In this document: positions 56,672 to 60,483 of the stretch, piece after piece
Layout: each line of letters begins with the position of its first letter
Numbering within the stretch: position 1 is the first letter of the stretch
Source: Rhizobium sp. BK418
GTDB lineage: Bacteria; Pseudomonadota; Alphaproteobacteria; Rhizobiales; Rhizobiaceae
Assembly (NCBI RefSeq): GCF_004341105.1
Contig: NZ_SLZK01000002.1
Location: 124,001 to 188,000 of the forward strand
DNA: 64,000 nucleotides
Direction of reading: 5' to 3'
The notes under the pieces: model-generated
Database searches by the model: none
What the model was told of the DNA's origin: nothing
What the model saw: only the letters and a program-made list of their open reading frames with translations
Translations under genes and position numbers: made by a program

Positions 56672-58324
56672 ATGCAACAGGCAGATTTCGTCATCGTCGG
56701 CTCCGGCTCGGCAGGCTCGGCGTTGGCCTACCGGCTTTCGGAAGACGGCAAGAACACAGTCATCGTCATCGAGGCAGGCGGCTCCGATTTCGGGCCATTC
56801 ATTCAGATGCCGGCGGCGCTCGCCTGGCCGATGAGCATGAAGCGCTACAACTGGGGTTATCTTTCCGAGCCGGAACCGAACCTCAACAACCGGCGCATCA
56901 CTGCACCCCGCGGCAAAGTTATCGGCGGCTCCTCCTCCATCAACGGCATGGTCTACGTGCGCGGCCATGCCGAAGACTTTAACCGATGGGAAGAGCTTGG
57001 CGCGCGTGGCTGGGCCTATGCTGATGTGCTGCCCTATTTCAAGCGCATGGAGAATTCCAAGGGCGGCGAGGAAGGGTGGCGCGGAACGGACGGGCCGCTG
57101 CATGTGCAGCGTGGCGTGGTAAAGAACCCACTCTTCCGTGCCTTCATAGAGGCCGGGAAGGAGGCGGGTTTCGAGACGACAGAGGATTATAACGGCTCGA
57201 AGCAGGAAGGCTTCGGTCTAATGGAACAGACCATCCATCATGGCCGGCGTTGGTCGGCGGCAAATGCCTATCTGAAGCCGGCGTTGAAGCGTCCCAACGT
57301 TGAACTCATCCGTGGTTTTGCCCGCAGGATCGTCATCGAGAACGGGCGCGCGACGGGCGTTGAAATCGAGCGCGGTGGTACAACGGAGATCGTCAAAGCC
57401 AACCGCGAGGTGATCGTCTCGGCCTCCGCCTTCAACTCGCCGAAGCTTTTGATGCTATCAGGCATCGGCCGCGGTCAGCATCTGCAGGATATGGGCATCG
57501 CGGTGATGGTCGACCGGCCCGGCGTCGGCGCCAATCTTCAGGACCATATGGAGTTCTATTTCCAACAGGTTTCGACAAAGCCGGTATCGCTTTATTCCTG
57601 GCTGCCCTGGTTCTGGCAGGGTGTCGCCGGCGCTCAGTGGCTGCTCTCCAAGGGTGGGCTTGGCGCCTCCAACCAGTTCGAAGCCTGCGCCTTTTTGCGT
57701 TCCGCCCCGGGGCTCAAGCAGCCGGATATTCAATATCACTTCCTGCCGGTGGCCATCAGCTATGACGGCAAGGCGGCAGCCAATACACACGGCTTTCAGG
57801 TGCATGTCGGCTACAATCTTTCGAAATCGCGTGGAAACGTGACGCTGCGCTCGGCCGATCCGAAGGCCGACCCGGTACTGCGCTTCAACTATATGAACCA
57901 TGCCGAAGACTGGGAGAAGTTCCGTCATTGCGTGCGTCTGACCCGCGAGATCTTCGGCCAGAGGGCCTTCGACCATTATCGCGGCCCGGAAATCCAGCCG
58001 GGCGAGAAGGTCCAGACAGACGATCAGATCGACGCCTTCCTGCGCGAGCATCTGGAGAGCGCCTATCACCCCTGCGGCACCTGCCGGATGGGCGCCAAGG
58101 ACGATCCGATGGCTGTCGTCGATCCCGATACGCGCGTGATCGGCGTCGATGGCCTGCGTGTGGCCGACAGCTCCATCTTCCCGCACGTCACCTACGGCAA
58201 CCTCAACGGCCCGTCGATCATGACGGGCGAGAAGGCCGCAGATCATATTCTCGGCAAGCAGCTGTTGGCGCGCTCCAATCAGGAACCCTGGAGCAATCCG
58301 CGGGCTGCAGTGAGCGACCGGTAG
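56672..58324 (+). CDS. betA: Choline dehydrogenase (GMC oxidoreductase)
   Basis: A 550-residue FAD enzyme that oxidises choline to betaine aldehyde at the membrane. FAD-binding start [21 protein letters not shown] signatures [16 protein letters not shown] and [17 protein letters not shown], and the C-terminal catalytic His segment [10 protein letters not shown] and [22 protein letters not shown]. Third gene of betIBA, 51 bases after betB. The betC choline-sulfatase gene seen inside this operon in Sinorhizobium meliloti is not present. Confidence 0.95.
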
Positions 58325-58348
58325 GGCCGCACAAAAAACTGGACAGCG

Positions 58349-58375
58349 TGTCACAAATGGCCACCTCATCTCGTC
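58349..58375 (+). promoter_or_regulatory. ECF41-type autoregulated promoter
   Basis: TGTCACA (58349-58355), exactly 16 bases, then CGTC (58372-58375). TGTCACA-N16/17-CGTC is the promoter known for ECF41 sigma factors (recalled from the published ECF41 work). It lies 25 bases after the betA stop and about 68 bases upstream of a sigma-factor start codon with matching ECF41 features. Confidence 0.85.
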
Positions 58376-58405
58376 CAGCCTTCTCGAACAGACAAGGTGA
58401 AGGAG

Positions 58406-58447
58406 ATGGCAATGGCGAAGCTGAACAAGAGCGAGGCTGAGCGATGA
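58406..58447 (+). CDS. Possible 13-residue leader peptide overlapping the sigma gene
   Basis: ATG at 58406 follows AAGGAG and opens 13 codons (MAMAKLNKSEAER) ending in TGA (58445-58447), which overlaps the ATG of the sigma gene (58444) as ATGA. It would couple translation of the sigma factor. The second ATG (58412) is also in frame. Too short for homology, so its reality rests on the ribosome site and overlap. Confidence 0.4.
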   Translation: MAMAKLNKSEAER

Positions 58448-59322
58448 CGGCGGCAGAGGGAGCGGATGCCATTGCCGCCTTCAATCCACTGCGCCCGCGG
58501 CTGACGCGGGTTGCCTATCGCATGCTGGGCTCGGTGGCAGAGGCTGAAGATATCGTCCAGGAGGCATTTCTGCGCTGGCTCGACGCCGATCGCGATGCGG
58601 TTCGCGAACCCGCTGCCTTTCTGCACCGGATCGTGACACGACTTTGCCTCGACCAGCTGAAATCGGCCAGGCGTCGGCGCGAGACCTATATAGGTCCATG
58701 GTTGCCGGAGCCGCTTGTCGTTATGCCGGAAGAGGGCATCGACGACGTCACCCTGCCGCTGATGATGGCGCTGGAACGGCTCTCGCCGCTCGAACGGGCA
58801 GTTTTCGTGCTGCACGACGTGTTCGGCATCGGCTTCGAAGAGATTGCCGCTACGATCGGGCGCAAGCCGGCAACCTGCCGCCAGCTTGCCAGCCGGGCGC
58901 GGGCCAATGTGCGAAGCGCACGGCCGCGTCATGCCCTACCGCCCGAGCACGGGATGCAGATCGCGTCGGCCTTTTTTGCGGCATCGCGAAGCGGCGATAT
59001 CGAGGCGTTGCGGGCGCTGCTTACGGAAGATGCAGCCGTCTACACGGACGGTGGCGGCAAGGCAGTAGCCCCACGACGGCCGGTTATCGGCAGCGACAAG
59101 GTGACGAAACTCTTTGCGGCCCTGGCGCCGATCTTCCGCGCACACATGTCCCGGCTGCTGCACTACGGCCTCGTCAACGGACTACCTGGATTTGTCAGCA
59201 TCGAGGAAGATCGCTGGCTGCAGACCACGGCCCTTCAGATCGACGGTGGCAGGATCACGGCGATCTATGTGACCCGCAATCCCGAGAAGCTCGCGCACCT
59301 GAAGCAGAACGCCCTGCATTAG
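58444..59322 (+). CDS. sigJ: ECF41-type RNA polymerase sigma factor with SnoaL-like C-terminal domain
   Basis: A 292-residue ECF sigma factor. Region 2: LRPRLTRVAYRMLGSVAEAEDIVQEAFLRWLDAD. Region 4: LPLMMALERLSPLERAVFVLHDVFGIGFEEIAATIGRKPATCRQLASRAR. The C-terminal ~115 residues form the NTF2/SnoaL-like extension with the ECF41 hallmarks DGGGK (about 202-206) and NPEK near 280-283. In ECF41 factors this extension, not an anti-sigma factor, controls activity. The gene sits after a matching promoter, and the next gene is a flavodoxin-fold oxidoreductase, a usual type of ECF41 neighbour. Confidence 0.9.
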   Translation: MTAAEGADAIAAFNPLRPRLTRVAYRMLGSVAEAEDIVQEAFLRWLDADRDAVREPAAFLHRIVTRLCLDQLKSARRRRETYIGPWLPEPLVVMPEEGIDDVTLPLMMALERLSPLERAVFVLHDVFGIGFEEIAATIGRKPATCRQLASRARANVRSARPRHALPPEHGMQIASAFFAASRSGDIEALRALLTEDAAVYTDGGGKAVAPRRPVIGSDKVTKLFAALAPIFRAHMSRLLHYGLVNGLPGFVSIEEDRWLQTTALQIDGGRITAIYVTRNPEKLAHLKQNALH

Positions 59323-59415
59323 GCCGCATCACCCACTTCACAGCCTTTCCTTTCAGCATCCGCAGCCACTGGCGGGGGCAGGCATCTGTTTTTCTCAAAT
59401 CACAGGAGATTACCC

Positions 59416-59997
59416 ATGACAAACATCGCCATCGTCTATCACAGCGGTTACGGCCATACGGCGCGGCAGGCGCAGGCGGTGAAAGCCGGTATCGAGCGGG
59501 TCGCCGCCACGAGGGGGGTGCTACTGACAACAGAAGAAGCGCAGGACCGCTGGGATGATCTGGCGGCGGCGGAGGCGATTATCTTCGGTGCACCAACCTA
59601 TGTCGCCGGGCCTTCCGCCGCTTTCAAGGCGTTTCAGGAGGCAAGCTCGCACGCGGTCATGGCGCGGGGTTATCGCTGGAGGAACAAGATCGCCGCAGGC
59701 TTCACCAATTCGGGCGCCCAAGCGGGCGACAAGCTCGCCACACTGATGCAGATCGCTCTCTTTGCCGCCCAGCACGGCATGCACTGGATCAATCTCGACC
59801 TGCCTCCGGCAAACAATTCCTCCCTTGGCTCGAAGGAGGACCTGAACCGGCTGGGTTTCTGGCTTGGTGCTGCGGCGCAATCGAATGTCGATGAAGGTCC
59901 GGAAAGCGCACCGCCCGAAGCGGACCTGGCAACTGCCCGCCATCTCGGCCAGCGGGTCGCCGAGGCGACACTGCAATTCATGCGTGGGCGCAACTGA
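59416..59997 (+). CDS. Flavodoxin-fold NAD(P)H:quinone oxidoreductase-like (WrbA/NQO-like)
   Basis: A 193-residue flavodoxin-like protein. FMN-binding start IAIVYHSGYGHTARQAQAVKAGIE, then WDDLAAAEAIIFGAPTYVAGPSAAFKAFQEAS and KIAAGFTNSGAQAGDKLATLMQIALFAAQHGMHWINL. WrbA-type family of quinone reductases. It follows the ECF41 gene by 93 bases with no terminator between, so probably co-transcribed and the target of the sigma factor. ACAGGAGATTACCC precedes the ATG. Confidence 0.85.
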   Translation: MTNIAIVYHSGYGHTARQAQAVKAGIERVAATRGVLLTTEEAQDRWDDLAAAEAIIFGAPTYVAGPSAAFKAFQEASSHAVMARGYRWRNKIAAGFTNSGAQAGDKLATLMQIALFAAQHGMHWINLDLPPANNSSLGSKEDLNRLGFWLGAAAQSNVDEGPESAPPEADLATARHLGQRVAEATLQFMRGRN

Positions 59998-60015
59998 GTG
60001 CTCAGAGCAATCGCG

Positions 60016-60483
60016 TCAGAGAAAACCGATCCACCGTCCGGCGACCAGAGCGACCCAGATCATCGCTGAAAGGGCTGCCGAGACCCGCACGATGGGACGG
60101 ATGATGCCGATCGCGATTGCGGTTCGCCACCCCTCGCCTATGTGAAGCATGAACACGTTCAGGAGACCAAGGGCGATCAGGCCGAGTTTGGCAAGGAAGG
60201 CGGGATTTCCGGCATATTCGGCCGGGCGCACACTGAAGAGGCAGAAGCCGGTGACAAGGGCCAAGGCAAGGCCGCTGCCGGCCGAGCGGGACAGGAATGG
60301 CGCAACGATCTCCACGGGCAGCTTGCGGAAGAAGCCGGCAAGTCTGAGATCGAGGGGCAGAATGGCGCCGATCAGAAGGCCGATCGCCAGGATGTGGGCC
60401 GCATTGACGAACATGTAGAGCACCGCGGAGCGCCGGAGCTCGACCGCCAACGTGGTGGCCGACAGCCATTCGAGAAACTCCAT
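60016..60483 (-). CDS. DUF6644-like membrane protein
   Basis: A 155-residue protein with about four hydrophobic segments: YMFVNAAHILAIGLLIGAILPLDLRL, GLALALVTGFCLFSV, FLAKLGLIALGLLNVFML and VRVSAALSAMIWVALVAG. The start MEFLEWLSATTLAVELRRSAVLYMF matches the DUF6644 pattern. Two His (HILAIG; LHIGEGW) could bind haem, as in related small membrane proteins, but this is not shown. Second gene of a leftward pair, 9 bases after the DUF6152 gene. Confidence 0.72.
   Translation of the reverse strand: MEFLEWLSATTLAVELRRSAVLYMFVNAAHILAIGLLIGAILPLDLRLAGFFRKLPVEIVAPFLSRSAGSGLALALVTGFCLFSVRPAEYAGNPAFLAKLGLIALGLLNVFMLHIGEGWRTAIAIGIIRPIVRVSAALSAMIWVALVAGRWIGFL

Follow-up and report, generated by a model that had tools for sequence, protein, structure and literature searches.

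ECF41 sigma factors are known from loci with a common layout and a promoter of the form TGTCACA-n16-CGTC, described in 2012 (PMC3426412). According to the accessible text of that paper, their COE partners are carboxymuconolactone decarboxylases (CMD), oxidoreductases or epimerases, with FMN_red and Flavodoxin_2 oxidoreductases included; the C-terminal extension of the sigma factor is needed for activity, there is no obvious anti-sigma factor, and no inducer is known. In Sinorhizobium meliloti, the accessible part of another study places a mapped CGTC promoter ahead of CMD-rpoE9, its single target (PMC6180224). Here we analysed a window of 64,000 nucleotides from Rhizobium sp. BK418 that holds an ECF41-type locus with a flavodoxin gene. 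Since the layout and the promoter are already published (PMC3426412, accessible text), the core of this locus is of a known kind and not surprising. We consider it likely that the promoter, a short leader ORF, the sigma gene and the flavodoxin gene (Table 1) form an autoregulated ECF41-type operon, whose promoter and transcript start would have been inherited from a CMD-sigma operon.

Table 1. Features of the ECF41-type locus, in window coordinates.
Feature	Coordinates	Strand	Remarks
Whole module, between convergent betA and DUF6644	58325..60015	+	
-35 element TGTCACA of the ECF41-type promoter	58349..58355	+	From sequence, orthologues and the consensus in the accessible text of PMC3426412
-10 element CGTC	58372..58375	+	First base C covaries with sigma residue 70
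Shine-Dalgarno of the leader, AAGGAG	58400..58405	+	
Leader ORF MAKLNKSEAER-stop, 11 codons	58412..58447	+	In-frame ATG also at 58406
ECF41/SigJ-type sigma, 292 aa	58444..59322	+	sigma2, WLPEP linker, sigma4, SnoaL-like C-terminal extension
Asp70 codon	58651..58653	+	C-terminal end of sigma2, region 2.4 by position; covaries with first -10 base
WLPEP linker motif of ECF41	58699..58713	+	From sequence and the accessible text of PMC3426412
DGGGK motif, C-terminal extension	59047..59061	+	From sequence
NPEK motif, C-terminal extension	59278..59289	+	From sequence
Sigma-flavodoxin intergenic stretch	59323..59415	+	93 nt; no TGTCACA promoter and no terminator found
Flavodoxin-fold/FMN_red protein, 193 aa	59416..59997	+	WrbA-like, outside the WrbA equivalogs

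The sigma protein scored 381.9 bits against the full-length NCBIfam SigJ model NF007214 (cut-off 271), and its domains matched PF04542 (59.6 bits, cut-off 24) and PF08281 (47.3 bits, cut-off 25.7). It stayed slightly under the cut-off of TIGR02957 SigX4 (317.4 against 323.25 bits), and Pfam SnoaL_2 alone gave 21.9 bits, under its cut-off of 27; the SnoaL-like C-terminal extension expected of ECF41, about 100 residues long, was recognised through the full-length SigJ model. The remaining ECF41 features are present as well: sigma2 and sigma4, WLPEP, the promoter of the locus and a neighbouring COE gene. The nearest solved structure by sequence is SigJ 5xe7 (E 1.4e-47). Among 129 relatives, the window included, WLPEP occurs in 102, DGGGK in 104 and NPxK in 127. 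DGGGK and NPEK are hallmarks of ECF41. A sequence-only reading of the window had assigned the sigma factor to this class on the two motifs; the class and both motifs hold, and a text search of the accessible part of PMC3426412 found neither motif.

An exact TGTCACA-N16-CGTC match lies at 58349-58375 on the + strand, where that reading had placed it. The betA stop is at 58324, which leaves 24 nt in front of the motif and puts its first letter at the 25th base; from the motif to the sigma ATG at 58444 there are 68 nt. The promoter form given in that reading agrees with the published TGTCACA-n16-CGTC (PMC3426412, accessible text). The search for TGTCACA-N14..18-CGTC on both strands gave this one match in the whole 64 kb, while shuffled windows held a mean of 0.08 matches (at least one in 8 of 100 shuffles). 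Upstream of orthologues the motif is conserved, standing ahead of the sigma gene in all six window-type loci, that is, the window locus and five orthologues of 88-92% identity. Among the 13 sigma-first loci, nine carry an exact TGTCACA-N15/16-CGTC, the window-type L087 having the N15 spacer; the variants are TGTCACG in L130, TGTC replacing CGTC in L133 and L165, and AGTCACA-N17-CGTC in L166. These comparisons support a conserved promoter belonging to the sigma gene itself.

Between this promoter and the sigma gene lies a leader ORF whose TGA stop overlaps the sigma start as ATGA. Counted from the -10, an AGGA occurs at +25 in 11 of the 13 sigma-first loci, at +23 in L087 and at +26 in L166; the leader ORF overlaps the sigma start in ten, is fused to it in frame in two and is absent from L166. 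Within the window type, the stop overlap is found in L001, L086, L087 and L088, and the upstream ATGs of L089 and L090, at +30 or +42, run in frame into sigma; the leader start also varies, lying at +34 in L087 and being GTG in L086. In the sister genus the leader has 37 codons in all six loci and overlaps the sigma start. By one fixed criterion, an ORF upstream of sigma overlaps its start in 36 of the 39 flavodoxin-first loci and in 40 of the 56 COE-first ones; among the 3 and 16 that the criterion missed, some overlap by more than it allowed. ATGA and TGATG junctions are reportedly associated with coupled translation (PMC6728339). A functional leader peptide was considered and rejected, as amino-acid constraint was not evident (pN/pS 0.73 for the leader frame, against 0.86 and 0.74 for the two alternative frames); therefore only the frame and the ends of the leader could matter, and its present role, if any, would be coupling. 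Ribosomes that translate the leader ORF probably keep sigma translation coupled to it. Folding of the leader RNA gave nothing firm (z -2.05; 8 of 200 shuffles equally stable).

Where the leader begins, a CMD usually begins. The CMD gene usually lies between promoter and sigma, and for 25 of the 35 CMDs used the first start codon falls 32-37 nt beyond the -10. All six sister-genus leaders start at +36 (one reads, for example, MTAKLDPLIATAAAMPSWL), and the window leader has its ATG at +36 too (MAKLN...), to be set beside CMD N-termini in CMD-first loci such as MTAKLNPFAAAPALMKxW. An HMM was built from 35 CMD N-termini, 35 of 45 CMD-like proteins being trimmable to a common start; against it, all six sister-genus leaders outscored all 1,000 of their own shuffles, with modest scores of 11.8 to 18.8 bits for leaders that are related to one another. 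The 11-codon window leader is too short for a CMD match by itself. The CMD is intact in L006, which the tree places among the two closest COE-first loci, and has a GTG at the same +36. No CMD likeness was seen by eye at the 3' end of the long leader, and none of the 15 sigma-first records listed (the window locus, its five orthologues, six sister-genus loci and L202 among them) matched CMD in a tblastn search; the window has no CMD gene between promoter and sigma. An intermediate with CMD, sigma and flavodoxin was likewise sought, and CMD was not matched in any of the 25 flavodoxin-bearing records listed (the 15 sigma-first, seven flavodoxin-first, and L167-L169, with flavodoxin and no sigma within 1.5 kb). 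The leader ORF is probably a relic of a CMD gene; for the short window leader, its position and its homology to the long leader point to the same origin. This suggests that the promoter first belonged to a CMD gene and was inherited by the sigma-first locus.

Could the leader ORF be there by chance? The locus would then be a plain ECF41-COE operon with an untranslated leader, its promoter having arisen with sigma as the first gene. When no Shine-Dalgarno sequence was required, 24% of the shuffled window leaders contained an overlapping ORF, which favours such a reading together with the lack of peptide-level constraint and of an overlapping ORF in L166 and, by the fixed criterion, in 6 of 11 other own-motif loci. 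With a Shine-Dalgarno sequence required the figure fell to 3.1%, and shuffles of L131 gave an overlapping ORF of at least 30 codons with a Shine-Dalgarno sequence in 1.1%; a stricter test, set after seeing the data, was passed by 57 of 20,000 shuffles, and by 3 of 20,000 with the peptide pattern. Since the equal leader length in the six sister-genus loci, the constant AGGA position, the CMD-like N-terminus in all six and the CMD-like start point all speak against it, we regard a chance ORF as unlikely and keep to a CMD relic.

Window-type loci share the order betI-betB-betA-sigma-flavodoxin-DUF6644-DUF6152-Rrf2-cysH-cysD, except that L159 lacks DUF6644 and DUF6152. We compared this order with 14 genomes chosen for absence of the module at this site, ten of the genus and four of the sister genus. 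In six of them (L179, L183, L184, L185, L187 and L188) betA abuts DUF6644; in the remaining eight the betA-DUF6644 gap is longer or DUF6644 is missing within 1.5 kb. This comparison supports a module that is present or absent as a unit between betA and DUF6644. The site also allows the sigma and flavodoxin genes to be read as the tail of the betIBA operon, transcribed by read-through when BetI repression is lifted under choline or osmotic stress, with the TGTCACA promoter secondary. They follow betA on the same strand after 24 nt, and a terminator was not seen in the window; the nearest bet gene upstream, in the same orientation, is betA in all six window-type loci and likewise in all six sister-genus loci (in L163 by a 95-nt DNA match only, in L130 via the longer stretch L200). 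We find this rather improbable, given that about 660 nt are inserted behind betA in L158, L159 and L160 with the promoter intact, that betA does without the module in the six genomes above, and that none of the seven flavodoxin-first stretches of 14-15 kb has bet genes. The insertions and the empty sites therefore favour an independent promoter over read-through from betA.

The inserted stretches (L158:9863-10533, L159:8566-9240 and L160:8276-8934) each carry a pair of small ORFs on the opposite strand. In L158, the one scanned, a toxin-like ORF matches ParE (PF05016, 59.1 bits) and its partner has no Pfam match. The differing upstream DNA in three of the six window-type loci had raised the idea of a mobile module that formed a new junction in every orthologue; it was abandoned, the bet-sigma-flavodoxin order being the same throughout and the difference an insertion in three of six.

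The 193-aa protein encoded behind sigma matches FMN_red/flavodoxin with 36.8 bits (gathering 24), and its nearest solved structure is 3d7n, a WrbA-like flavodoxin (E 2.6e-40). It had been called a flavodoxin-fold quinone oxidoreductase. The fold was recovered; quinone oxidoreductase can be read at the level of the fold only, because the scores against the NQO and WrbA equivalog models are far under the cut-offs (56.9 versus 141 and 50.4 versus 132.5 bits). No terminator-like site was found on the + strand between 59322 and 59416, and RNA folding of 59300-59440 was no better than in shuffles (z +1.2), in agreement with the earlier statement that none separates the two genes. An AGGAGAT ahead of the flavodoxin start is kept in all six window-type loci. 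That the flavodoxin gene is a mere neighbour with a promoter of its own is very improbable, despite gaps of 93 nt in the window and 174-298 nt in the sister genus, for the TGTCACA motif was not found in the gap, the single sigma70-like site in 58300-60100 is on the - strand, and flavodoxin and sigma are linked in 36 of 36 cases in two gene orders.

This linkage comes from 148 genomes of the genus, where a sigma match at E 1e-60 occurs in 38 and the flavodoxin in 36 at 65% identity or more (in 50 at E 1e-40). All 36 of these flavodoxin genes adjoin a sigma gene, six sigma-first as in the window and 30 flavodoxin-first, the coordinates of both searches having been compared by eye. By contrast, none of 16 family-sample flavodoxin loci below 58% identity had such a sigma in flanks of at most 1.5 kb. 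The sister genus has the flavodoxin in 6 of 16 genomes, always sigma-first, and an order sample of 397 genomes gave a match at E 1e-70 in six, of which one is sigma-first (L166) and three have no sigma within 1.5 kb. Of 39 flavodoxin-first loci, 35 carry TGTCAC-N-TGTC upstream of the flavodoxin gene (L105, L107, L114 and L136 do not); the 39 include one pair, L045 and L138, with identical sigmas. The sigma tree was built quickly and leaves 48 of its 107 inner branches open; it places 12 sigma-first loci in a single group (SH-aLRT 91), with two COE-first loci next to them (SH-aLRT 87).

A tRNA-Ser gene (TGA anticodon) was found directly ahead of the flavodoxin promoter region in all seven flavodoxin-first loci tested (L096, L100, L102, L104, L106, L111 and L114), which were picked for a shared upstream stretch. 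tRNA genes are a common kind of integration spot. On the cyanobacterial plasmids L265, L269 and L272, typed as conjugative, an NAD(P)H-dependent oxidoreductase gene is directly followed by an ECF41-type sigma gene; TGTCACA-N-CGTC lies upstream at -670 in L269, -681 in L272 and -1416 in L265.

One residue of the sigma factor covaries with the promoter. Of 112 sigma/promoter pairs, the 74 with Asp where the window sigma has D70 all carry CGTC and the 38 with Asn there all carry TGTC, and the split recurs inside the sister genus (L133 and L165 versus the other four). The column was picked because it separated the groups best, and the prediction was therefore noted before further data were added. 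The later set consisted of L064, of loci from 385 genomes of the class (30 of 53 places) and from 15 further genomes (30 of 38 places), and of 19 loci on plasmids of several phyla (19 of the 60 listed among 275 records). From the 209 loci of both sets, 17 identical copies were removed, and motif-less loci (12 in training, 14 in test) were set aside. The later set then gave 44 Asp-C and three Asn-T loci (L064, L234 and L257) and none of the opposite kind; L064 has Asn with the motif TTGTC. Some loci have Thr, Ser, Ala or Glu at this position, two of them, in the later set, with motifs, both of the C type. With a laxer motif and wider placement the first set gave 78 Asp-C and 38 Asn-T loci; the single exception is L081, which has Asp and a TGT-type motif 821 nt upstream. 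On a tree built without the residue-70 column, the residue changes three times and the base four times; in three independent pairs the base follows the residue (all three in nearly every one of 200 pairings), too few pairs for a sign test to reach significance. RpoE9 of S. meliloti, with its mapped CGTC promoter, has Asp. The -10 of Bacillus licheniformis is TGTT (PMC3426412, accessible text), and Asn is predicted at position 70 of its sigma factor.

Residue 70 may decide which first -10 base the sigma factor reads. Asp could accept the amino group of cytosine, and Asn could donate to the carbonyl of thymine. With such a switch, D70N would shift the window sigma from CGTC to TGTC. Todor 2020 is reportedly a source on determinants of ECF -10 specificity. 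That such specificity is set by loop L3 of sigma2 is already known from a review (PMC8103513, accessible text). For the leader and residue 70, we lean slightly towards a CMD target cut down to a coupling leader that sets the sigma dose, combined with a D/N switch at residue 70 for C or T that would hold throughout ECF41.

The sequence-only reading had also called the locus self-contained and a compact autoregulated stress module. Autoregulation and a stress role are putative, and 'self-contained' needs to be softened, since transcripts may run on from betA, behind which a terminator was not seen, and since a second, divergent ECF41-like sigma gene lies in the same genome (L177:3990-4865, contig C6). 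Its product is 38-39% identical to the window sigma and scores 245.8 with SigJ, under the cut-off of 271; an exact TGTCACA-N16-CGTC lies 56 nt upstream of the position that aligns with residue 1. Because the two share the motif, cross-talk is possible. The second sigma has neither DGGGK nor NPEK and adjoins a 1597-aa autotransporter-like ORF (named by eye). As a predictor of a regulon the motif gained little: the genome-wide search gave 14 matches against six for a reversed-pattern control, and nine of the 14 (L115-L119 and L122-L125) have TGTCACAGG in common, followed by AGCC or a close variant. These nine look repeat-like and do not resemble an ECF41 promoter.

Promoter conservation, synteny, the empty site, the overlapping leader ORF and the CMD likeness of the long leader, all brought out by comparison of sequences, would fit the following scheme, in which we infer transcription from the promoter, autoregulation, co-transcription, translational coupling, a signal and an enzyme reaction. 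RNA polymerase with the window sigma would read TGTCACA-N16-CGTC, and one transcript through the sigma and flavodoxin genes would yield more sigma and more enzyme, so the sigma factor probably turns on its own promoter and the neighbouring flavoprotein gene. The SnoaL-like C-terminal domain, the presumed sensor, would return sigma to low activity. With the promoter and the transcript start taken over from a CMD-sigma operon, the CMD gene would have shrunk to the leader ORF, whose ribosomes would end on the sigma start codon and keep sigma translation coupled, as appears to be the case in CMD-first and flavodoxin-first relatives; the flavoprotein would take the place of the enzyme target. An ECF41 switch may, in other words, change its enzyme partner and keep its promoter and start signals. 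If CMD was replaced by a flavoprotein, guesses at the inducer would narrow to a substrate of both kinds of redox enzyme. The pair of one residue and one base is testable and phylogenetically replicated, and would be useful for the design of orthogonal sigma-promoter pairs.

The betA-DUF6644 site, the leader ORF with its likely CMD origin and the covariation of residue 70 with the -10 appear not to have been noticed before; in titles and the beginnings of abstracts we found no report of ECF41 loci with a leader ORF or a CMD relic, nor of the residue-70/-10 pair. The ECF41 loci of Rhodobacter sphaeroides and B. licheniformis share with the window locus the C-terminal extension, WLPEP, the lack of an anti-sigma factor, TGTCACA-n16-CGTC and a COE partner; in them the enzyme gene carries the promoter (PMC3426412, accessible text), whereas in the window locus sigma comes first, behind a leader ORF resembling a CMD remnant. 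RpoE9/SMb20029 (locus L263) is like the window locus in its CGTC promoter, ECF41 sigma and Asp70, and unlike it in having the CMD intact and first (PMC6180224, accessible text). SigJ of Mycobacterium tuberculosis (5xe7) is the closest structure to the window sigma, distant in sequence, and the WrbA/NQO type IV flavoproteins and 3d7n share the flavodoxin fold of the window protein, which misses the WrbA equivalog cut-offs. The cyanobacterial plasmids show the same oxidoreductase-sigma pairing in another phylum. In L007, L032, L042, L064 and L280 the ECF41 partner resembles a small protein of the antibiotic-biosynthesis-monooxygenase type (by annotation in L280, elsewhere by eye); this class is outside the three named for ECF41 in the accessible text of PMC3426412. 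As with the loop L3 determinants, where short sigma2 stretches set -10 specificity (PMC8103513, accessible text), the ECF41 position is in sigma2; unlike loop L3, it lies at the end of sigma2 and is paired, as D or N, with the first base of the -10.
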